This document shows, one piece after another, positions 8,370-41,762 of a stretch of DNA of 64,000 bases. A model generated the notes under the pieces. That model was not told the origin of the DNA and ran no database searches. It saw only the letters and a list, made by a program, of their open reading frames with translations. Location of the stretch: contig NZ_OMPN01000001.1 in the NCBI RefSeq assembly GCF_900291975.1, positions 1 through 64,000 of the forward strand, in the 5' to 3' direction. The first letter of the stretch is position 1. Each line of letters begins with the position of its first letter. A program made the position numbers and the translations under genes. This stretch comes from Agathobaculum massiliense. Lineage in GTDB: Bacteria > Bacillota > Clostridia > Oscillospirales > Butyricicoccaceae.

Positions 8370-8774
8370 TTGGCGTATGTACCTGTACCCAAAGACTTAT
8401 CCAAAGTCAAAACAAAAGTCGCTTTCAATCTGACAAAGCGGCAAATCCTTTGTTTTTCAGTGGCACTTCTTATGGGACTGCCACTTTTCTTTTTGCTCAA
8501 GGACAGCGCAGGGACGAGCCTTGCGGCAACGGCAATGATTGTCGTCATGCTTCCCTGCTTCTTAGTTGCCATGTATGAAAAGCATGGACAGCCCCTTGAA
8601 GTGGTTGTAAAGAACATCATTCAGACAAAGTTTACCCGCCCCAAAGTGCGACCGTATCAGACGGAAAACCTATATGCACTCTTGGAGAAACAGCGGGCAT
8701 TAGAAAAGGAGGTATCAGCGATTGTCAAAAGGACAGACAAAAAAGACGCGGGAAGCCGCAGGAAACAGGCGTAA
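8370..8774 (+). CDS. PrgI family conjugal transfer protein (VirB3-like)
   Basis: A 134-residue protein. The N-terminus is VPVPKDLSKVKTKVAFNLTKRQ, the signature beginning of PrgI-family proteins, followed by two transmembrane helices (residues about 30-75) and a charged tail. It probably partners VirB4 in the channel, as VirB3 does. Translation starts at TTG 8370 after the strong SD AAAGGAGG. The 3' end overlaps the VirB4-like gene by 53 bp, typical of this pair. Confidence 0.85.
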   Translation: MAYVPVPKDLSKVKTKVAFNLTKRQILCFSVALLMGLPLFFLLKDSAGTSLAATAMIVVMLPCFLVAMYEKHGQPLEVVVKNIIQTKFTRPKVRPYQTENLYALLEKQRALEKEVSAIVKRTDKKDAGSRRKQA

Positions 8775-11151
8775 GCTGACCCGCGCAGAAAAGAAACAGA
8801 TAGCGGCGGTTATCCGGCAGGCAAAGGGGGACGGCAAAGCCCACACCGCACAGCAGACCATTCCCTACCTTGCCATGTACCCGGACGGTATCTGCAAAGT
8901 GGCGCAGCGGAAATATTCAAAGAGCATTGCTTTTGAGGATATTAACTATCAGCTTGCACAGGCAGACGATAAGACCGCCATTTTTGAAAACTGGTGCGAT
9001 TTTCTCAACTACTTTGACGCGAGCGTGAACGTGCAGCTTTCTTTTATCAATCAAGGCTCACAGCAGGAACAGGCAGCGCGGGCAATCCATATCCCGCCCC
9101 AAAACGACGATTTTAACTCTATCCGCACCGAGTATTCCGATATGCTGAAATCGCAGCTTGCCAAAGGGAACAACGGGCTTGTAAAGCACAAGTACATCAC
9201 ATTTTCCATTGAAGCGGACAATCCGGCGGCAGCAAGGGCGAGGCTTTCCCGTATTGAAACCGACGTACTCAATAACTTTAAGGTGCTTGGGGTATCGGCG
9301 CACCCCTTATCCGGCTATGAACGTCTGAAAGTGCTGCATGGGGTATTCCACCCGGCAGGCGAGCCGTTCTCATTCTCCTATGACTGGCTGACCCCGACAG
9401 GGCTTACCACAAAGGACTTTATCGCCCCGTCCTCTTTCAAGTTTGGGGAGGGACGCTACTTTGCTATGGGGAAAAAGACGGGGGCGGTGTCGTTCCTTGA
9501 AATCCTTGCCCCGGAGCTGAACGACCGTATCTTAGCGGATATGTTGGACTTGGAAACAGGGGTTATTGTCAATCTCCACATTAAAAGTATCGACCAGTCG
9601 GAAGCAATCAAGACCATTAAGCGCAAAATCACAGACCTTGACAAGATGAAGATTGAGGAACAGAAAAAAGCGGTTAGAAGCGGCTACGATATTGACATAC
9701 TCCCGTCTGACCTTGCTACTTTTGGGAATGAAGCAAAGAACCTGTTGCAGGATTTACAGAGCCGAAACGAGCGAATGTTTCTTCTCACGTTCCTTGTGGT
9801 AAACATGGCAGACACGAAGCGGAAACTGGAAAATGACATTTTCGCGGCGGCGGGCATTGCACAGAAATATAACTGCGCCTTGACCCGTCTTGACTATCAG
9901 CAGGAAGCGGGGCTGATGTCCTCTATCCCTTTGGGGGAGAACCTTATCCCTATTCAGAGAGGGTTGACGACGAGCAGCACCGCTATTTTTATCCCGTTCA
10001 TCACACAGGAACTATTTCAGACTGGGGCTGCCCTGTATTATGGCTTAAATGCCCTGTCAAACAACATGATACTCTGCGACCGCAAGCAGCTTAAAAATCC
10101 AAACGGGCTTATCTTGGGAACACCGGGCAGCGGAAAATCCTTTGCGGCAAAGCGGGAAATCACAAATGCTTTTCTCATTACCGACGACGATATTTTTATC
10201 TGCGACCCGGAAGCGGAGTATTTTGCCCTTGTAAAACGGCTTGGCGGGCAAGTGATACGGTTATCCCCGACAGGCAAAGGTATGGACGGTACGCCCCAGT
10301 ATGTGAACCCTATGGATATGAACCTCAACTATTCCGAGGACGACAGCCCCCTTGCACTGAAAAGCGATTTTATCCTTTCTCTCTGCGAGCTTGTCATTGG
10401 CGGCAAGGAGGGCTTACAGCCTGTTGATAAGACCGTCATTGACCGCGCTGTAAGAAATGTGTACCGGGACTACCTTGCCGACCCTGTACCGGAGAAAATG
10501 CCTATTTTGGGCGACCTTTACGACGAGCTGTTAAAACAGCCGGAGCCGGAAGCTGCCCGCATTGCGGCAGCATTGGAGCTGTATGTTTCCGGTAGCCTTA
10601 ACGTATTCAACCACAGAACCAACGTGGAACTGAATAACCGCCTTGTTTGCTTTGATATTAAGCAGCTTGGAAAACAGCTTAAAAAGTTAGGTATGCTCAT
10701 TGTGCAAGACCAGATATGGAACCGCGTTACCATTAACCGGGCAGAAAAGAAATCTACCCGCTACTATATGGACGAATTTCATTTGCTCTTAAAAGAGGAA
10801 CAAACCGCCGCGTACAGTGTGGAGATTTGGAAGCGTTTCCGTAAATGGGGCGGCATACCGACAGCTATCACACAGAATATTAAGGACTTGCTTGCTTCAC
10901 GCGAGGTGGAAAATATCTTTGAAAACTCTGATTTTGTCCTCATGCTCAATCAGGCGCAGGGCGACCGGGCTATCCTTGCAAAGCAGCTTAATATCTCCCC
11001 GCAACAGATGAAGTATGTAACCCATACCGAAGCAGGCGAGGGACTTATCTTTTATGGAAATGTGGTGCTGCCCTTTGTAGACCATTTCCCGAAAGATACC
11101 GAGCTTTACCGCATTATGACGACGAAGCCGGAGGAAGTGAGCAGCCTATGA
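8722..11151 (+). CDS. VirB4-like conjugation ATPase (CD1110 type)
   Basis: An 809-residue type IV secretion ATPase. The N-terminal ~400 residues are the VirB4 family domain. Walker A is GTPGSGKS (Gly466-Ser473), followed by DDDIFICDPEAEYFALVKRL and Walker B RYYMDEFHLLL, then AITQNIKDLLASRE. It would power assembly and substrate transfer in the mating channel at the membrane. Start is TTG 8722 after SD AAAAGGAGGT (8704-8713). Its stop overlaps the methyltransferase ATG, so the two are translationally coupled. Confidence 0.92.
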   Translation: MSKGQTKKTREAAGNRRKLTRAEKKQIAAVIRQAKGDGKAHTAQQTIPYLAMYPDGICKVAQRKYSKSIAFEDINYQLAQADDKTAIFENWCDFLNYFDASVNVQLSFINQGSQQEQAARAIHIPPQNDDFNSIRTEYSDMLKSQLAKGNNGLVKHKYITFSIEADNPAAARARLSRIETDVLNNFKVLGVSAHPLSGYERLKVLHGVFHPAGEPFSFSYDWLTPTGLTTKDFIAPSSFKFGEGRYFAMGKKTGAVSFLEILAPELNDRILADMLDLETGVIVNLHIKSIDQSEAIKTIKRKITDLDKMKIEEQKKAVRSGYDIDILPSDLATFGNEAKNLLQDLQSRNERMFLLTFLVVNMADTKRKLENDIFAAAGIAQKYNCALTRLDYQQEAGLMSSIPLGENLIPIQRGLTTSSTAIFIPFITQELFQTGAALYYGLNALSNNMILCDRKQLKNPNGLILGTPGSGKSFAAKREITNAFLITDDDIFICDPEAEYFALVKRLGGQVIRLSPTGKGMDGTPQYVNPMDMNLNYSEDDSPLALKSDFILSLCELVIGGKEGLQPVDKTVIDRAVRNVYRDYLADPVPEKMPILGDLYDELLKQPEPEAARIAAALELYVSGSLNVFNHRTNVELNNRLVCFDIKQLGKQLKKLGMLIVQDQIWNRVTINRAEKKSTRYYMDEFHLLLKEEQTAAYSVEIWKRFRKWGGIPTAITQNIKDLLASREVENIFENSDFVLMLNQAQGDRAILAKQLNISPQQMKYVTHTEAGEGLIFYGNVVLPFVDHFPKDTELYRIMTTKPEEVSSL

Positions 11152-17387: not shown

Positions 17388-17486
17388 AGCAAGCATAGGA
17401 AAAGAGTACCCTTTTCCGTAAAATCCCTGCTTTCTCTACCGAGAACGGCGGGGATTTTTGCTTGTTGGGAAGTTTCCCAAACCCTC
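17388..17486 (+). repeat. Second copy of the oriT-like sequence (inverted relative to 25415-25513)
   Basis: The 33 bases 17388-17420 are identical to the reverse complement of 25481-25513. They contain a near-perfect 20-bp palindrome centred on GTAC (arms GGAAAAG and CTTTTCC). The second block, 17460-17486, holds TTGGGAA-GT-TTCCCAA and matches the reverse complement of 25415-25441 with one change. The DNA between the blocks differs. A hairpin, AAACCCTC (17479-17486) with GAGGGTTT (17496-17503), follows. It lies between topB and the anti-restriction gene. Confidence 0.75.
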
Positions 17487-17535
17487 TGTTTTATGGAGGG
17501 TTTTACCCTCTGAAACCGAAGAAAGGAGGTTACAC

Positions 17536-20500
17536 ATGGCAAGTTTACGGGACACCGTAAAGGACTATCAAGAAGAATTAAGGGACGGTATCGCTTGGGT
17601 GGCGTTTTGGAAAACGGGACGTTCTTGGAACGCTGAATATTTCCACCTTGGAATGGGCGACTACCTCTACCCGGAGGACAGAAGCCGCATGGAAGAAATC
17701 AAGCAGGCTGACCCCGCCGCCGTTGTGGTAAACGGCTATTATTCCGGCTATCTTGGCGAGGATATGAGCCTTGACGAACTGACCGCCGGGGTGCGCCGCC
17801 ACTATGAAAACGGATATAGCAATATCGGGGAATTTATCGAAGCCCACGACGACAGGCTGCCGCCGGAGCTTATCGAGGAAGCAAGAGCCGCCGCCCACGC
17901 TGCGGGGCTTCCTTTCTCTGAAAAAGCCTACCGGGACGGCGAAGAACCCGACCCCTATCTATTTGACGGGAGCATGAGCATGGAGGATTACGAACTTATG
18001 CACCGCATGATTGAAAACGAAAGGAGTGAACGCATGGCAGAAACGATTTTAAGCGGGTATCTTTCTAATCTTGGAAAGTACACCGAGGGCAGACCTGCGG
18101 GCGAATGGGTATCATTCCCCACGACTGCCGAGCATTTGAAAGAAGTCTTTGACCGTATCGGGATAGACGGCAAAAACTACGGGGAGCTGCACATCACAGA
18201 ATACCAGTCCTCTATTGCGGGACTGGCAGGGAAATTGACCGAGCTTGAAAGCCTTGACGAGCTGAACTATTTGAGCGAACTTTTGAAAATGCAGTTTGAC
18301 GACGACCGGGAAAAATTTGTCGCAGCTATGGCATACGGCGACCATACAAGGGACTTGCAGGACATTATCAACCTTGCACAAAACCTTGATTGTTACTGGC
18401 TTTATCCGTCCGTACAGAGTGAGGAAGATTACGGGCATTATCTGATTGAGGAACTGGACGAGTTGGAGCTGCCCGAAGGAGCAAAAAAATATTTCATGTA
18501 TGAGGAATACGGGCGGGACGCTGCTATCAATGACGGGGGCAGATTTACCGAGCAGGGCTATATCTACAATAACCGCAACACCTTTACACAGTGGTACGAC
18601 GGGCGCGACGTGCCGGAGGAATACCGGGTAACGCCGCAGCCGCCAGTACAGGAAAAGGAACAGGCAGACCTTGACGTTGCCGTAACCATACAAACCGCCG
18701 CCACAGAGCAGCCCCCGGTTCTCCCGATTATCCTATCTTCTGAAAAGCCCGCCGACAAAATGAAAGAGATTACCGACCGACTGGAACAAGGGATTTTAGG
18801 ACTGTATGAAAGCGACCGTTACGCCGACTATCTGCGTACTATGTCAAAATTCCATGATTACAGCCTTAACAATACAATCCTTATCGCCATGCAGGGCGGC
18901 AACCTTGTGAAAGGCTATAAACAGTGGGAAAAGGAATTTGACCGCCATGTAAAGCCCGGAGAAAAAGCTATCAAGATACTTGCACCGTCCCCGTTTACCG
19001 TTAAGAAACAAGTGGAAAAAATCGACCCGGACACCCAAAAGCCTGTTTTCGATAAGGACGGGAAACCTGTTACCGAAGAAAAAGAAATCAAGATACCCGC
19101 TTTTCGTGTAGTATCTGTCTTTGATATTTCACAGACCGAGGGAAAGGAGCTTCCTGCCCTTACCTATGAGCTGACGGGCAACGTGGAACAATACAAGGAT
19201 TTTTTCGCTGCCCTTGAAAAGACTTCCCCGTTTGCTATGGGATTTGAAGCACTAAGCGGCGGCGTAAAAGGACGCTGCAATTATGAGGAAAAGCGTATCT
19301 TCATCAACGAGGGTATGGACGAATTGCAGAATATCAAGACCGCAATCCATGAAATCGCCCACGCCACGCTGCATGATACCGCCCTTGCTATGCCGGAACG
19401 CCCCGACCGCCGCACCCGCGAGGTACAGGCAGAAAGCGTCGCCTATGCTGTCTGCCAACATTACGGGCTTGATACGTCGGACTATTCTTTTGGATATATC
19501 GCCGGGTGGATCAGCGGAAAAGAACTTGCAGAACTGAAAGGCTCTCTTGAAACAATCCGCAGCACCGCCGCGAAGCTGATTGATACCATAGACGGGCATT
19601 TTGCAGAAATCCAAAAGGCACAGGATAAAGAACAGACCACCGAACAGGCACAGCCCGCACAGGAAGCTACCAAACAGCCCGAAGCAGAAACAGCCGCGCC
19701 GGAGCTTTCCGAAGAAACAACCCCGGTACAGGAAAAAGAAGCACAGACCGAGCCGGAAGCTGATACAGGCGTAAGCAGCGAAACACCGCAGACCACACAG
19801 CCGGAACAGGTAGCCCCCGTCGCCCCTTATTACACTATCAATGAAGCTGCCGCCAAACGTGCAAAGGATATGAACAGCTTTTCCGATTATAAGCAAGGCA
19901 GCGCGACGGCTGAATACAGGCATTACGTTGATGAAGCCGTACAGCTTGCAGAAAGGCAGAAACAGCGGGTAGACCCGATGTACCATGAGAAAATCGACAG
20001 CCTGCTTGATACCTACGCCCGGAAATTGGCGGCGAACATGAACAAAGGCTATGAGATTGACGCTCGTGTTCCCTCTATCCTGATTGCGGGCGGCTCTAAC
20101 TTTCCCACAAGGAAGAAAGAAAAGCAGAACGCAGCCCGCGACAGCAATTACCGTGAATGGCAGGACATACAAGGGCTTCTTGATAAAATCCGCAGTACCG
20201 GCATGGGCGGTATCAGTGCAGACGACCCGCAGGCAGTACAGAAGTTAGAAAAGAAACTGGAAAGCCTTGAAAAATCACAGGAAACCATGAAAGCCGTAAA
20301 CGCTTATTACCGTAAGCATAAGACCCTTGACGGCTGCCCGCATTTACCGCCGGAGGAACTGGAAAAACTGAAAGCGGACATGGCGAGCAGTTGGCATTTG
20401 GAGGACAAGCCCTTTGCGACTTGGGCGTTATCCAACAACAGCGCAGAAATCCGGCGTGTAAAAGACCGTATCAAATCCCTTTCACAGCAAAAAGAAATTG

Positions 20501-21420
20501 GTTTTGTCGGTTGGGAATTTGACGGCGGCAAGGTGGAAGCAAACACCGAAGCGAACCGACTGCAAATCTTCTTTGAGGATAAGCCGGACGAAGCCACGCG
20601 GGAAGCCTTAAAAAGTAATGGCTTCCGTTGGTCGCCAAAAGCAGGGGCATGGCAGCGGCAGCTTACCAGTAACGCTTACTATGCGGCTGATTATGTGAAA
20701 GCGATTGCACCCCTTACCGGGGAAAAGCCGACCGAGTTACAGCGGGCGCATATCCGGCAGCAAAAGGTAGCTGCACAGGAACAACCTGCACAGGGGCAGC
20801 CGGAACAGGAAGCCCCACAGCACAAAGACACCTTTTCCATTTATCAGATAAAAGGCGGGGACGAAACAAGAGATTTGCGCTTTGAACCTTACGACCGTCT
20901 GACTGCCACAGGACACCGGGTAGACCCGAAAAACTATGCGCTTGTCTATTCCGCAGAGCTTACGCCGGGGACTTCCCTTGAAGATATTTACACCCGCTTC
21001 AATATCGACCACCCGAAAGATTTTAAGGGACACAGCCTTTCCGTTTCCGACGTGGTGGTGCTTCATCAGAACGGGCAGGACACCGCCCACTATGTAGACA
21101 GCTTTGGTTATAAGGACGTACCGGAATTTTTGCAGCCGGAAAACTATCTAAAAACTGCCGAGCAGACCACCGAGCAAAACTACAACATGATTGACGGGCA
21201 GATAAACAACACCCCGACCGCTGCGGAACTGGAGGAAAAGGCAAAAGCCGGGGAACAGATTTCCCTTGTAGAATACGCCAAAGCATTGAAAACCGATAAG
21301 GAACGCGGCAAGTCTGCCAAACAGGAAAAGCCCTCTATCCGGGCGCAGCTTAAAGCAGCGAAAGAACAGACACCGAAGAAACAGGCAAAACAGAAAACAC
21401 AGGATTTGGAAAGGAGCTGA
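17536..21420 (+). CDS. Giant anti-restriction protein: ArdA + ArdC + YodL + DUF4316-like domains
   Basis: A 1,294-residue cytoplasmic protein. Residues 1-165 are an uncharacterised acidic domain. About 170-375 is ArdA-like (GYLSNLGKYTEGRPAGEW; YGELHITEYQ), a DNA mimic that blocks type I restriction enzymes. About 405-545 is an ArdC-type ssDNA-binding domain (LRTMSKFHDYSLNNTILIAM). Residues 600-680 hold the zinc metallopeptidase motif HEIAHATLHD. Residues 780-1080 are helical. About 1097-1170 is YodL-like, and the tail resembles DUF4316. ATG 17536 follows AAAGGAGG. There is a second SD (AAAGGAG, 18019-18025) eight bases before an in-frame ATG at 18034, exactly at the ArdA start, so a shorter ArdA-led product is likely. 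It probably protects entering DNA. Confidence 0.82.
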   Translation: MASLRDTVKDYQEELRDGIAWVAFWKTGRSWNAEYFHLGMGDYLYPEDRSRMEEIKQADPAAVVVNGYYSGYLGEDMSLDELTAGVRRHYENGYSNIGEFIEAHDDRLPPELIEEARAAAHAAGLPFSEKAYRDGEEPDPYLFDGSMSMEDYELMHRMIENERSERMAETILSGYLSNLGKYTEGRPAGEWVSFPTTAEHLKEVFDRIGIDGKNYGELHITEYQSSIAGLAGKLTELESLDELNYLSELLKMQFDDDREKFVAAMAYGDHTRDLQDIINLAQNLDCYWLYPSVQSEEDYGHYLIEELDELELPEGAKKYFMYEEYGRDAAINDGGRFTEQGYIYNNRNTFTQWYDGRDVPEEYRVTPQPPVQEKEQADLDVAVTIQTAATEQPPVLPIILSSEKPADKMKEITDRLEQGILGLYESDRYADYLRTMSKFHDYSLNNTILIAMQGGNLVKGYKQWEKEFDRHVKPGEKAIKILAPSPFTVKKQVEKIDPDTQKPVFDKDGKPVTEEKEIKIPAFRVVSVFDISQTEGKELPALTYELTGNVEQYKDFFAALEKTSPFAMGFEALSGGVKGRCNYEEKRIFINEGMDELQNIKTAIHEIAHATLHDTALAMPERPDRRTREVQAESVAYAVCQHYGLDTSDYSFGYIAGWISGKELAELKGSLETIRSTAAKLIDTIDGHFAEIQKAQDKEQTTEQAQPAQEATKQPEAETAAPELSEETTPVQEKEAQTEPEADTGVSSETPQTTQPEQVAPVAPYYTINEAAAKRAKDMNSFSDYKQGSATAEYRHYVDEAVQLAERQKQRVDPMYHEKIDSLLDTYARKLAANMNKGYEIDARVPSILIAGGSNFPTRKKEKQNAARDSNYREWQDIQGLLDKIRSTGMGGISADDPQAVQKLEKKLESLEKSQETMKAVNAYYRKHKTLDGCPHLPPEELEKLKADMASSWHLEDKPFATWALSNNSAEIRRVKDRIKSLSQQKEIGFVGWEFDGGKVEANTEANRLQIFFEDKPDEATREALKSNGFRWSPKAGAWQRQLTSNAYYAADYVKAIAPLTGEKPTELQRAHIRQQKVAAQEQPAQGQPEQEAPQHKDTFSIYQIKGGDETRDLRFEPYDRLTATGHRVDPKNYALVYSAELTPGTSLEDIYTRFNIDHPKDFKGHSLSVSDVVVLHQNGQDTAHYVDSFGYKDVPEFLQPENYLKTAEQTTEQNYNMIDGQINNTPTAAELEEKAKAGEQISLVEYAKALKTDKERGKSAKQEKPSIRAQLKAAKEQTPKKQAKQKTQDLERS

Positions 21421-33097: not shown

Positions 33098-33140
33098 GAG
33101 CCTTGAATGTGGTACAATATAGTCAAGCATATCAAGGCTC
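33098..33140 (+). promoter_or_regulatory. int promoter inside an inverted repeat
   Basis: GAGCCTTGA (33098-33106) and TCAAGGCTC (33132-33140) form a perfect 9-bp inverted repeat. Between them lies an extended -10, TG-G-TACAAT (33110-33118). The arrangement could be an operator over the int promoter, or a hairpin limiting xis-to-int read-through. Confidence 0.5.
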
Positions 33141-33166
33141 TTTCCATTATGGAAAGGAGCATAACG

Positions 33167-34360
33167 ATGTCGGAAAAAAGACGGGATAATAAAAATCGTA
33201 TTCTCCGCACCGGAGAGAGCCAGAGAAAAGACGGGAGATATGCCTACAAATATATAGATACCTTTGGGAAACCGCAGTTTGTGTATTCTTGGAAGTTAGT
33301 ACCTACGGACAAAACCCCGGCAGGAAAACGCGACGATATAGCGTTGAGGGAAAAAGAGAAAGAAATCCAAAAAGACCTTGACGACGGTATCGACCATATC
33401 GGAAAGAAAATGACGGTCTGCCAACTTTATGCAAAGCAGATACGCCATCGGGCAAATGTGCGGTATGGTACAAAGCAGGGGCGAAAACAGCTCATGCGGA
33501 TTTTGCAGGAGGATAAACTTGGAGCCTGCCGGATTGAAAATGTGAAGCTCTCCGACGCAAAGGAATGGGCGTTACGCATGAAAGAAAAAGGTTACGGCTT
33601 CAAGACTATCAACAACCACAAGCGTTCATTAAAGGCTGCCTTTTACACAGCTATACAGGACGATTGTATTCGTAAAAATCCGTTTGACTTCCAGTTGAAC
33701 ACCGTTCTTGAAGATGATACGGAACCAAAGGAACCTCTATCCCCTACGCAAGAAGCGGCTTTCCTGTCCTTTGTGCAGCATGATAAAGTCTATCAGAAAT
33801 ACTATGACGAGATTATCATACTATTAGGGACAGGACTTCGTATTTCGGAACTCTGCGGACTGACGGAAGCTGACATTGACTTAGAGAAACAGCTTATCAA
33901 TGTAGACCACCAACTTTTGAAGATTGCAGACGTGGGCTACTATGTGGAAACGCCTAAGACAAAAAGCGGCAACCGGGTTATTCCTATGAGTGAAAAAGTG
34001 TTGGAAGCATTTCAGCGGGTGCTGAACAAGCGGAAATATGCACAGCCTGTTATTTTGGAGGGCTACACAAAGTTTCTGTTCCTTAATCGGAACGGCTTGC
34101 CAAAAGTGGCAGTCAACTATGAAAGTATGTTCCGGGGGCTTGTAAGGAAATACAACAAAATGCAAAAGGTAGCATTGCCAAAGGTAATGACACCGCACAC
34201 CTTACGCCACACATTCTGCACCACGTTAGCAAATGCGGGAATGAACCCTAAAGCATTGCAGTACATCATGGGACATTCCAACATCAATATGACGCTGAAC
34301 TATTACGCGCATACGACTTCCGAAACGTCGATAACAGAAATGAAGCGGTTGATTGCATAA
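33167..34360 (+). CDS. int: Tn916-family tyrosine integrase
   Basis: A 397-residue tyrosine recombinase that integrates and excises the ICE. It has an N-terminal arm-binding domain (RYAYKYIDTFGKPQFVYSWK), a core-binding domain (residues ~80-185) and a catalytic domain with Arg225 in GTGLRISEL, HTLRHTFCT, MGHSNI and nucleophile Tyr379 in LNYYAHT. Tyr379 is also the catalytic residue number in Tn916 Int. ATG 33167 follows SD AAAGGAGC. Arm-type repeats lie directly after the stop. Confidence 0.96.
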   Translation: MSEKRRDNKNRILRTGESQRKDGRYAYKYIDTFGKPQFVYSWKLVPTDKTPAGKRDDIALREKEKEIQKDLDDGIDHIGKKMTVCQLYAKQIRHRANVRYGTKQGRKQLMRILQEDKLGACRIENVKLSDAKEWALRMKEKGYGFKTINNHKRSLKAAFYTAIQDDCIRKNPFDFQLNTVLEDDTEPKEPLSPTQEAAFLSFVQHDKVYQKYYDEIIILLGTGLRISELCGLTEADIDLEKQLINVDHQLLKIADVGYYVETPKTKSGNRVIPMSEKVLEAFQRVLNKRKYAQPVILEGYTKFLFLNRNGLPKVAVNYESMFRGLVRKYNKMQKVALPKVMTPHTLRHTFCTTLANAGMNPKALQYIMGHSNINMTLNYYAHTTSETSITEMKRLIA

Positions 34361-39111: not shown

Positions 39112-39140
39112 TTGTCCGAACACCGTGTTTTTGCTATAAT
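39112..39140 (+). promoter_or_regulatory. SigA-type promoter of the GTPase-NYN gene
   Basis: TTGTCC (39112-39117), 17-base spacer, TATAAT (39135-39140), 40 bp before the ATG. The LexA box of the divergent operon is 48 bp upstream. Confidence 0.65.
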
Positions 39141-39179: not shown

Positions 39180-41762
39180 ATGAAACGAATTGTCGTCGGA
39201 ATTCTGGCACATGTGGATGCCGGTAAAACCACGCTGGCCGAAGCGATGTTGTACCGGGCGGGTGTGCTGCGCAGGCTTGGCAGAGTGGACCACAGGGATG
39301 CTTTTCTCGATACGGCCGCGCTGGAACGGGAGCGCGGTATCACGATTTTTTCCAAGCAGGCGGTTTTTGATCTGGCGGGAACCTCTGTCACCCTGCTGGA
39401 TACGCCGGGACATGTGGATTTCTCTGCGGAGATGGAGCGCACGCTTCAGGTGCTCGACTATGCGGTTCTGGTGATCAGCGGTACGGACGGCGTACAGGCG
39501 CACACCCATACGCTTTGGCGACTGCTTGCGCGGCATCAGATCCCTGTAGTGGTTTTTGTCAACAAGATGGACCTCGCTAGTACGGAGCGGGCGGGACTGC
39601 TCGCCGAACTGAAAAAGCAGCTGGGGGAGGGCTGCGTTGATTTCAACGGAAACGCCGCGCGGCAGGCGTTTGAAGAAAACTTGGCGGTATGCGATGAAAC
39701 GCTGCTGGAGCGGTATCTGGACGGACAGGCCGTGCGGGATAAGGATATTGCCGCACTGATTCGGACAAGAACGGTTTTCCCATGCTATTTCGGCTCCGCA
39801 CTGCATCTACAGGGTGTGGAGGACCTGCTGGACGGATTGGACCGCTATACGGACATGCCGGCGGATGGCGCGGCTTTTGGAGCGAGGGTGTTCAAAGTCG
39901 CGCGGGATGAGCAGGGAAACCGGCTGACCTATCTCAAGCTGACCGGCGGTACGCTGCGTGTGCGCGAGGTGGTCAGCGGCAGCGAGGACGGCGGCTGGCA
40001 GGAAAAAGTCAACCAGCTTCGGATCTATTCCGGCATGAAGTACCGGACGGTGGAAACAGCGGAATGCGGTATGGTTTGCGCGGCGACAGGGCTGACGCAT
40101 ACCATGCCGGGCATGGGGCTGGGGAGCGTGGCGGGCGCGCTATCACCGGCGCTGGAACCAGTGCTGACCTATCGGATGCGGCTGCCGGATGGCTGCGACC
40201 CGCATGCGATGCTGCAAAACATGCGGCTGCTGGAGGAGGAAGACCCGCAGCTTCGGGTATCGTGGAATGAAGCGTCTGCGGAGATCCACCTGCAGCTTAT
40301 GGGCGAGGTTCAACTGGAAATACTGGCACGGCTGATTGAGGAACGCTTTGGGGCGGCCGTGCAGTTTGACACGGGCAGGATTGTTTATAAAGAGACGATC
40401 GCTTCGCCGGCTGTTGGTATCGGTCATTTTGAGCCGCTGCGCCACTATGCGGAGGTGCATTTGCTGCTCGAGCCGGGCGAGCGGGGCAGCGGCCTTGTGT
40501 TTGCTTCCGCCTGCCCGACCGATGTGTTGGACCTGAACTGGCAGCGGCTCATCCTGACCCATCTGGGAGAGAAGACGCATATCGGTGTGTTGACCGGCGC
40601 GCCGGTCACGGATATGAAGATCACACTGCTCACCGGTCGGGCGCACGTTAAGCATACCGAGGGCGGAGATTTTAGGGAAGCGACCTACCGCGCGGTGCGG
40701 CAGGGCTTGATGCAGGCGGACAGCATTCTTTTGGAGCCGTATTATGCTTTTCGACTTGAGGTGCCGGAAAGCTGTGTCGGGCGGGCGATGAGCGATATTC
40801 AGCGGTTGGATGGTTCGTTTGAGATACCGGAAAGCAAAGACGGCCGCGCGGTACTGACCGGAAAGGCGCCAGTGTCCACCCTGCGCGATTACTGGACTGA
40901 GGTTGCGGCGTATACGCGCGGTGAGGGGCGGCTTTCCTGCGAGCTGTCCGGCTACGAGCCGTGCCATAATGCGGCGGAAGTGATCGCGGCGGCGGCATAC
41001 GACGCCGCGCATGACGTGGAAAACACACCGGATTCGGTTTTTTGCTCGCATGGCGCGGGGCATGTCGTCAAATGGGACGAAGTACCCGCGCAGGCGCATC
41101 TGGACAGCGGCCTCCGGCTGGGCGGCGGAAAAGAACAGACGGATACGCCGCCGGCACGGCAGACACGCTCCCGAGCAGGTTCGGGCCTGGAGGAGGACGC
41201 GGAGCTTCGCGCGTTGTTTGAACGCACCTATGGCCCGATCAAGGACCGGGGGTTCGAGGCGTTCCAGCAAAGCCGCAGGAAAAGCGCTACGCTCGAGCAG
41301 CTGTATGTGACCCGCATCCGCGCGGAGGATTACCTGCTGGTGGACGGCTACAACATCATATTCTCCTGGGACGAGCTGCACGACATCGCGGCGGGGGACA
41401 TCAACGCCGCGCGGGAAGCGCTGCTCAACCTGCTCAGCGATTATCAAAGCGTGCGCAAGTGCCATTTGATCGTGGTGTTTGACGCGTATAAGGTTAAGGG
41501 CGGCGTCGGCTCGGTCGAGAAGCTACATGGCCTGGATGTCGTTTACACCAAGGAGGCGGAGACTGCGGATATGTATATTGAGCAGGCATCCTATGACTTG
41601 TCCCGCAAGCATCGGGTTCGGGTCGCGACCTCGGACGGTATGGAGCAGATGATTATTCTGGGGCATGGGGCGGAACGCATGTCTGCGACCGAGCTGAAAT
41701 GGGAAGTGCAGCAGGCAAGCGAACATATTCAAAGCGTTTTGCGGGAGATGAAAAACCGGTGA
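39180..41762 (+). CDS. TetM/EF-G-like translational GTPase fused to a YacP/Rae1-type NYN ribonuclease domain
   Basis: An 860-residue protein. Residues 1-640 follow the ribosomal-protection/EF-G plan: P-loop GILAHVDAGKTT, LERERGITIFSKQ, DTPGHVDFSAEMER, NKMD, then domains II-V. A linker (~640-710) leads to a YacP-like NYN domain (~715-860) with acidic residues Asp722 (LLVDGYNIIFS), Asp768 (VVFDAYKVKGG), Asp797 (ETADMYIEQA) and Asp819 (ATSDGMEQ). B. subtilis YacP (Rae1) cleaves mRNA in the ribosomal A site, where TetM-type GTPases also bind. A combined ribosome-rescue or mRNA-cleavage function is inference. It is a single-gene unit with its own promoter, not next to known resistance genes, so I do not call it tet. 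Confidence 0.88.
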   Translation: MKRIVVGILAHVDAGKTTLAEAMLYRAGVLRRLGRVDHRDAFLDTAALERERGITIFSKQAVFDLAGTSVTLLDTPGHVDFSAEMERTLQVLDYAVLVISGTDGVQAHTHTLWRLLARHQIPVVVFVNKMDLASTERAGLLAELKKQLGEGCVDFNGNAARQAFEENLAVCDETLLERYLDGQAVRDKDIAALIRTRTVFPCYFGSALHLQGVEDLLDGLDRYTDMPADGAAFGARVFKVARDEQGNRLTYLKLTGGTLRVREVVSGSEDGGWQEKVNQLRIYSGMKYRTVETAECGMVCAATGLTHTMPGMGLGSVAGALSPALEPVLTYRMRLPDGCDPHAMLQNMRLLEEEDPQLRVSWNEASAEIHLQLMGEVQLEILARLIEERFGAAVQFDTGRIVYKETIASPAVGIGHFEPLRHYAEVHLLLEPGERGSGLVFASACPTDVLDLNWQRLILTHLGEKTHIGVLTGAPVTDMKITLLTGRAHVKHTEGGDFREATYRAVRQGLMQADSILLEPYYAFRLEVPESCVGRAMSDIQRLDGSFEIPESKDGRAVLTGKAPVSTLRDYWTEVAAYTRGEGRLSCELSGYEPCHNAAEVIAAAAYDAAHDVENTPDSVFCSHGAGHVVKWDEVPAQAHLDSGLRLGGGKEQTDTPPARQTRSRAGSGLEEDAELRALFERTYGPIKDRGFEAFQQSRRKSATLEQLYVTRIRAEDYLLVDGYNIIFSWDELHDIAAGDINAAREALLNLLSDYQSVRKCHLIVVFDAYKVKGGVGSVEKLHGLDVVYTKEAETADMYIEQASYDLSRKHRVRVATSDGMEQMIILGHGAERMSATELKWEVQQASEHIQSVLREMKNR

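Follow-up and report, generated by a model that had tools for sequence, protein, structure and literature searches.

The window analysed here, a 64,000-nucleotide stretch of the Agathobaculum massiliense genome (contig NZ_OMPN01000001.1, positions 1 to 64,000), contains a gene at 39180..41762 on the plus strand that encodes, in a single ATG-started frame of 860 amino acids (aa) plus a stop codon, a translational GTPase joined to a C-terminal NYN/YacP domain. Our analysis suggests that this fusion is a two-part, ribosome-directed mRNA endonuclease, in which the GTPase would bring a nuclease of the Rae1 type to a blocked or empty A site; we put the probability of this reading at about 0.5. The fusion architecture itself is already known, and its function has been a matter of inference. 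In the available part of the paper, Atkinson (2015) described, from ten clostridial species, 'Tet' proteins that carry a YacP-like NYN domain and assigned them to the Tet subfamily (PMC4342817). In our own literature search no experimental work on the fusion was among the matches listed, and the separation of the GTPase from true Tet proteins, the exclusion of a free YacP and the loss of the Rae1 tail, all described below, were not found in print in it.

Sequence and predicted fold identify the C-terminal domain (residues 717-860, 41328..41759; this and all other parts of the gene lie on the plus strand) as a Rae1-type NYN nuclease domain with an intact acidic site. The NYN_YacP Pfam match covers residues 719-858 (E = 6.7e-46; 156.7 bits against a cut-off of 24.6), and a sequence search of the PDB returned Bacillus subtilis YacP/Rae1 for the back part of the protein, whereas the front part had TetO and TetM as its top matches. 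An AlphaFold2 model of the whole fusion, built from a 36-sequence alignment, had a mean predicted local distance difference test score (pLDDT) of 83.9 and a predicted template modelling score of 0.61. Structure searches with this model returned EF-G, EF-2, RF3, TetM and spliceosomal relatives, many of them with large root mean square deviations (rmsd), which we attribute to domain movement; because of these large values, the NYN part was also folded alone (pLDDT 83.8). It then matched Rae1 structure 5mq9 with a Z score of 21.3 and an rmsd of 1.5 Å over 135 residues and structure 5mq8 with a Z score of 17.9, the best non-Rae1 chain reaching 9.2. Asp722, Asp768, Asp797 and Asp819 align with D7, D53, D81 and D104 of B. 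subtilis Rae1, whose residue numbers were counted along the alignment. All four are aspartate in each of the 79 aligned fusions, in 88 of 88 when nine more distant ones are included, and also in all 30 of the separate YacPs compared, that of B. subtilis among them. The first-pass annotation, made from the letters of the window alone, had read a GTPase and a YacP domain with these four residues intact in one frame, and the Pfam domains of both halves, the alignments and the structural match to Rae1 all bear this out.

The front part has the layout of a translational GTPase. Pfam matches were obtained for the G domain (GTP_EFTU, residues 4-224, 39189..39851, E = 6.8e-50), EFG_III (residues 326-396), domain IV (EFG_IV, residues 400-513, 40377..40718) and domain V (EFG_C, residues 517-598, 40728..40973), together with a weak domain II match (EF-G_D2, E = 7.5e-05, 23.2 bits) that stayed under its cut-off of 27. 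Within domain IV, the loop III signature G-R-A-H-x-K-H-T-E-G-G-D-F-R (residues 486-500, 40635..40679) replaces the YYSPVSTPADF of TetM. The GTPase ends in a C-terminal cap (residues 595-640, 40962..41099, with C595, SVFC622, W632 and H640), which is shared with free-standing members of its group and was modelled as two strands and a helix with pLDDT values of 70-90 by blocks. A flexible linker (residues 641-716, 41100..41327) then leads to the NYN domain; in the model it contains a helix at residues 669-684 and is disordered (pLDDT <50) at residues 648-670 and 688-714.

For the conservation analysis we used the best 80 of at least 596 confirmed relatives (at least 598 pattern-matching stretches) from genome contigs, a relative being confirmed as some relative and not necessarily as a fused one. 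Because these best 80 match the window protein over both halves, the fusion is no assembly accident. The first alignment held 79 rows, namely the window protein and 78 full-length proteins, after L001 (the window's own locus) and the cut loci L037 and L070 had been left out. Columns conserved at 97% or more accounted for 52 of 117 positions in domain IV (residues 399-515), 63 of 230 in the G domain, 32 of 144 in the NYN domain and 11 of 116 in the linker region (residues 601-716). By this measure the strongest constraint falls on domain IV, whose tip would be expected to reach into the decoding centre. The residues checked in the P-loop, DTPGH and NKMD motifs are kept in 86-88 of the 88 fusions, H78 of DTPGH in all 88.

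When 293 Clostridia genomes were searched with a GTPase profile (A1; residues 1-605, 36 rows) at E <= 1e-170, 122 of them matched, 99 with a fusion-length frame, 19 with a short frame of 624-729 aa and 4 with a frame cut by the contig end (G044, G156, G172 and G235); the last were left out of the fused and short counts. The fusion is widespread in the class. Two of the 99 fusion-length frames (G062 and G190) have an internal stop. In G190 (locus L133) the fusion is split into frames of 285 and 540 aa, possibly by decay or by a sequencing error, and this locus was dropped before the comparison with short GTPases. In a phylum-wide sample (E <= 1e-150), 21 of 299 genomes matched, 18 with fusion-length and 3 with short frames, six of the 21 being class members or the A. 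massiliense genome itself; the GTPase group is rarer outside the class. Fusion-length matches are also contained in two unannotated records named 'Bacteriophage sp.', and fusions in two records called plasmids, from Monoglobus and Agathobacter.

Further evidence that ties the fusion to Rae1 comes from the distribution of separate yacP genes. NYN_YacP was matched in 192 of the 293 class genomes at E <= 0.001, 191 of them over the family cut-off; NYN frame lengths are those of the listed matches, which do not include the weakest. An NYN match over the cut-off, second to the fusion where there was one, occurred in 1 of the 99 fused genomes versus 88 of the 190 others (Fisher p = 4e-19). A looser count at E <= 0.001 gave 4 of 99 versus 89 of 190 (p = 1e-15), and three of these four second matches span 47 residues and miss the cut-off of 24.6 bits, with scores of about 21. 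The three weak matches (G120, G174 and G208, all of genus g34) lie in frames of 163-165 aa and are perhaps degenerate former yacP genes. Fused and non-fused genomes both occur within families f22, f23, f27 and f47, and in the A. massiliense genome the fusion is the sole NYN_YacP match. The fusion and a separate YacP thus nearly exclude each other; it therefore seems that the fusion stands in for a separate rae1/yacP gene, and this supports the view that it does the job of Rae1. The usual locus of the gene agrees with this picture: among 29 separate YacP loci, hand-picked from the profile matches as were the 20 short GTPases, yacP lies within 0.2 kb of rlmB and/or sigH in 28 and beside rlmB in 25. 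The best rlmB match of the A. massiliense genome is followed by a 734-aa frame with no Pfam match and an EF-G-like gene, not by yacP. The EF-G-like GTPase near this rlmB (721 aa, L160:3095-5260) forms a long branch in the tree (L153).

The C-terminal tail of Rae1 is absent from the window protein, as judged by length. From the last catalytic Asp on, the window protein has 42 residues (D819 counted) versus 65-69 in the 29 separate YacPs, and in 59 of the 88 fusions this stretch does not reach even the smallest length seen among the separate YacPs, a count that does not depend on any pattern. A tail of the LEKxRR type (FEKWRR in B. subtilis) was found in 29 of 29 separate YacPs and, by the same pattern, in 17 of 88 fusions; this pattern had been widened after misses were seen in a first version, which gave 25 of 29 and 12 of 88. 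A still looser pattern gave 29 of 29 and 29 of 88, the window protein being included, apparently at LREMKNR. The B. subtilis tail ends at R166, and in the text at hand the authors of PMC6613710 grouped the rae1 mutation R166P with loss-of-function rae1 alleles that suppress an efp mutant. The loss of the tail fits a GTPase that has taken over the function of the tail. In the NYN tree, which like the GTPase tree took 42 of the 88 fused rows, 41 of the 42 fused rows and 3 separate sequences fell on one side of a branch with 99% support, and the remaining, long-branched fused row (L132) grouped with separate YacPs. A single origin of the fused NYN domain from a resident yacP is likely on this topology. 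In genome G209 (L122:3987-4508 and L108) a short GTPase occurs together with a free NYN protein that was placed among the fused ones, a possible fission; no rlmB or sigH was found within the 8.5-kb stretch around this NYN gene.

In a quick GTPase tree of 68 rows, 42 fused and 21 short proteins formed one group (99% support), apart from the three Tet proteins TetM, TetO and TetW (100%); OtrA, TetQ and TetP were not included. Loop I (GHFEPLRHYAEVHL, little changed), loop III (H-x-K-H-T-[ESCN]-G-G-D-F-R) and the cap, including C595, C622 and H640, recur in the 20 short GTPases, most of which end within a few residues of this cap. These three residues are present in 88, 86 and 85 of the 88 fused and in 20 of 20 short proteins and might form a metal or redox site. 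A loss of the NYN domain in Ligilactobacillus salivarius, whose free-standing GTPase was nested among the fusions in the quick tree, was considered and set aside: holding the 42 fused rows together gave a better likelihood (p = 0.80 in the approximately unbiased test), and one origin of the fusion was not rejected.

Several observations weigh against the view that the fusion works as a ribosome-directed nuclease in place of Rae1. First, the exclusion counts ignore relatedness, which inflates them, and in one genome (G284) the fusion coexists with an ordinary yacP of 174 aa beside rlmB and sigH (L140). Second, among 25 genomes of the genus, that of A. massiliense included, an NYN match was found in 21 (19 of fusion length and 2 shorter, of 478 and 563 aa); because the other four, with completeness of 81, 94, 96 and 98%, have none, the gene seems dispensable. 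Third, the loss of the tail might instead reflect a nuclease whose activity is changed or lowered, and 17 to 29 of the 88 fusions keep the tail in some form. Fourth, GTPase and NYN are not clearly linked when unfused: an NYN match was found in 13 of 19 genomes with a short GTPase versus 76 of the 171 that lack the GTPase altogether (p = 0.055), a co-occurrence that we rejected as support because it is too weak, and the 6 short-GTPase genomes with no NYN match imply that the GTPase has a job of its own.

These last genomes also favour an explanation in which the two halves are independent, the GTPase being a separate translation factor that acts on a particular stall or A-site ligand and the NYN domain serving ordinary Rae1-type decay, with the fusion doing nothing but keeping both near ribosomes. 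Free-standing GTPases with a similar tip and cap, the higher conservation of domain IV than of the NYN domain and the long, largely disordered linker all point the same way. However, the near exclusion of separate YacP and the loss of the tail in most fusions suggest that the NYN domain depends on its partner, and the pattern of the linker helix recurs in 68 of the 88 fusions, in which the linker varies from 66 to 141 aa. On balance we regard independent halves as somewhat unlikely. Separate expression of the two parts, which the first-pass annotation had named as evidence that would speak against it, was not apparent. ATG codons preceded by a Shine-Dalgarno sequence occurred at 2.58 per 1000 in the linker versus 0.47-3.0 in five other stretches, and all three start codons with such a sequence at 8.88 versus 4.43-8.39 per 1000, slightly the highest value but not convincing. 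Starts are therefore not clearly enriched in the linker, and the NYN part may yet be translated separately.

A second explanation, suggested by Atkinson (2015), is that the protein protects ribosomes from tetracycline and that its RNase contributes to resistance. The best NCBIfam match of the GTPase is indeed tet_protect, TetO and TetM are its closest solved relatives by sequence, and many public records assign relatives to a TetM/TetW/TetO/TetS family. However, the tet_protect score is 424.5 bits against a curated cut-off of 775, the score against tet_protect_M_W is 275 bits against 1100, and the protein lies outside the TetM/O/W group; the EF-G equivalog cut-off is likewise not reached (273.9 bits against 659.4), an EF-G-like gene being present elsewhere in the genome as a 704-aa frame. 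Pro509 of TetM, which sits in the drug site according to the available text of PMC8161019, aligns with Lys491, and the TetM C-terminal extension, whose helix matters for TetM as excerpted from PMC4750697, has given way to the SVFC..H cap. Loop III by itself is not decisive against protection, because the TetM triple loop III mutant S508A/P509A/V510A can remain active (same excerpt of PMC4750697). In the A. massiliense genome the GTPase profile scored 1059.7 bits for the fusion versus 258.5 for the next match. This next match is a separate Tet(M/W/O/S)-family gene (L141:2008-3927, on contig C2 at about 714.3-716.2 kb), and it passes the curated Tet(M/W) cut-off with 1284.8 bits versus 1100. The putative promoter of the fusion gene would also fit a tet(M)-type gene poorly. 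A sigma-70-like TTGTCC-17-TATAAT (39112..39140, plus strand; 10 of 12 consensus matches and a consensus match only) precedes it, 2 promoter-like sites being found in a 401-base region versus a mean of 0.2 in shuffles, and the leader, estimated at about 33 nucleotides, would be too short for a tet(M)-type attenuator. A tetracycline protection protein is thus unlikely, and we consider a resistance role of the fusion improbable. The 'ribosomal-protection type' label of the first-pass annotation is not supported in view of these scores and of the missing TetM loop III and C-terminal extension, and its idea of drug-blocked ribosomes as targets is weak because the GTPase fails the Tet tests and the genome has a separate gene passing the Tet model.

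Processing or cutting of rRNA or tRNA by an NYN domain that the GTPase targets to ribosomes or their precursors seems more improbable still: such a role was predicted for the YacP-like NYN domain in a statement quoted in the part of PMC4342817 available, and rlmB, the neighbour of most separate yacP genes, encodes an rRNA methylase, but the Rae1 work cited in PMC12320835, PMC10100781 and PMC6613710, as far as their text was at hand, favours A-site or translation-dependent cleavage of mRNA.

Under the ribosome-directed reading that we prefer, a Rae1-type NYN domain with an intact acidic site would replace the separate rae1/yacP. The GTPase, placed beside the TetM/TetO/TetW clade, would enter the A site with domain IV, as homology to EF-G and TetM implies, and the nearly invariant HxKHTxGGDFR loop suggests a domain IV tip tuned to a target other than tetracycline. 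The GTPase would find ribosomes with an empty or wrongly occupied A site; after GTP hydrolysis domain IV would withdraw, and the NYN domain on its linker could then cut the A-site mRNA. Sequential action, which the length of the linker would allow, is proposed because both parts should not fit the A site together. The available portion of PMC12320835 describes Rae1 as an enzyme that attacks A-site mRNA and cuts of this kind as preparing ribosomes for tmRNA-SmpB. The truncated mRNA would let the ribosome be released by trans-translation, for which the A. massiliense genome encodes SmpB. Cleavage of mRNA and rescue of ribosomes by the fusion are what we infer from these relations. A more specific version remains tentative, and we hold it as a possibility short of likely. 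In it, Clostridia, with a variant in some lactobacilli, have a GTPase, often annotated as a tetracycline protection protein, whose HTxGGDFR tip (HxKHTxGGDFR in Clostridia) senses a particular state of the A site; in many Clostridia this GTPase was fused to the resident Rae1, which made the separate gene superfluous, and the resulting single protein, driven by GTP, would first clear the A site and then cut the mRNA for rescue or regulated decay.

Elsewhere in the window, positions 8722-34360 look like part of an integrative conjugative element. This region encodes an ATPase of the TraG type at 8722-11151, a 1320-aa protein at 17458-21420 in which LPD15, ArdA and ArdC-N domains are combined, and at 33107-34360 an integrase of the Tn916 type. 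The G+C content at third codon positions is 0.69-0.78 for parts of the fusion versus 0.52-0.56 for the integrase and the 1320-aa gene, and because of this difference the fusion gene looks native. No conserved neighbours of the fusion were found within the flanks (up to 5 kb, often less), the top families, with the gene and the frames overlapping it set aside, being present at 7 or fewer of 81 loci; the commonest neighbour families looked unrelated by their first residues, no family search having been made of them.

If the ribosome-directed reading is true, a large group of gut bacteria makes with a fused factor the A-site mRNA cut that in B. subtilis is made by a small free enzyme, and a natural fusion would show which GTPase works with Rae1. 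Some genes labelled as TetM/TetW/TetO/TetS family are probably not resistance genes, although the label invites counting them as such, and the NYN-less relatives make the functions of GTPase and NYN domain separable.

Among known systems, the fusions of Atkinson (2015) are close: the window protein likewise has a Tet-like GTPase followed by a YacP-like NYN domain in one chain, in a member of Clostridia, and is apparently one more of them. Those proteins were classed as Tet, whereas here the GTPase groups apart from TetM/O/W and together with free-standing proteins, and 99 of 293 class genomes have the fusion. TetM, TetO and TetW resemble the fusion GTPase in domain layout, with about 28-32% identity and the closest solved structures by sequence, but differ from it in loop III, loop I and the C-terminal extension, in the family cut-offs that it does not reach and in the tree. 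The free-standing GTPase of L. salivarius UCC118 (plasmid pMP118, LSL_RS10690) is about 50% identical to the window protein across 632 aligned positions and has in common with it loop I GHFEPLRHYSEVHL, the SVFC...MH cap and, in loop III, HTxGGDFR; it has neither linker nor NYN domain, and its loop III, ASNVHTVGGDFR, does not keep the H and K before HT. This megaplasmid gene (L161:3986-5920) lies near rpsN (S14) and a putative metal homeostasis gene, and nothing on the tetracycline susceptibility of UCC118 was found in the parts of the literature at hand. Finally, Rae1/YacP of B. subtilis (5mq8, 5mq9) has its fold, four aspartates and Pfam family in common with the NYN domain of the fusion; unlike Rae1, the NYN domain of the window is fused to a GTPase, lies away from the rlmB-sigH locus and lacks the FEKWRR tail.

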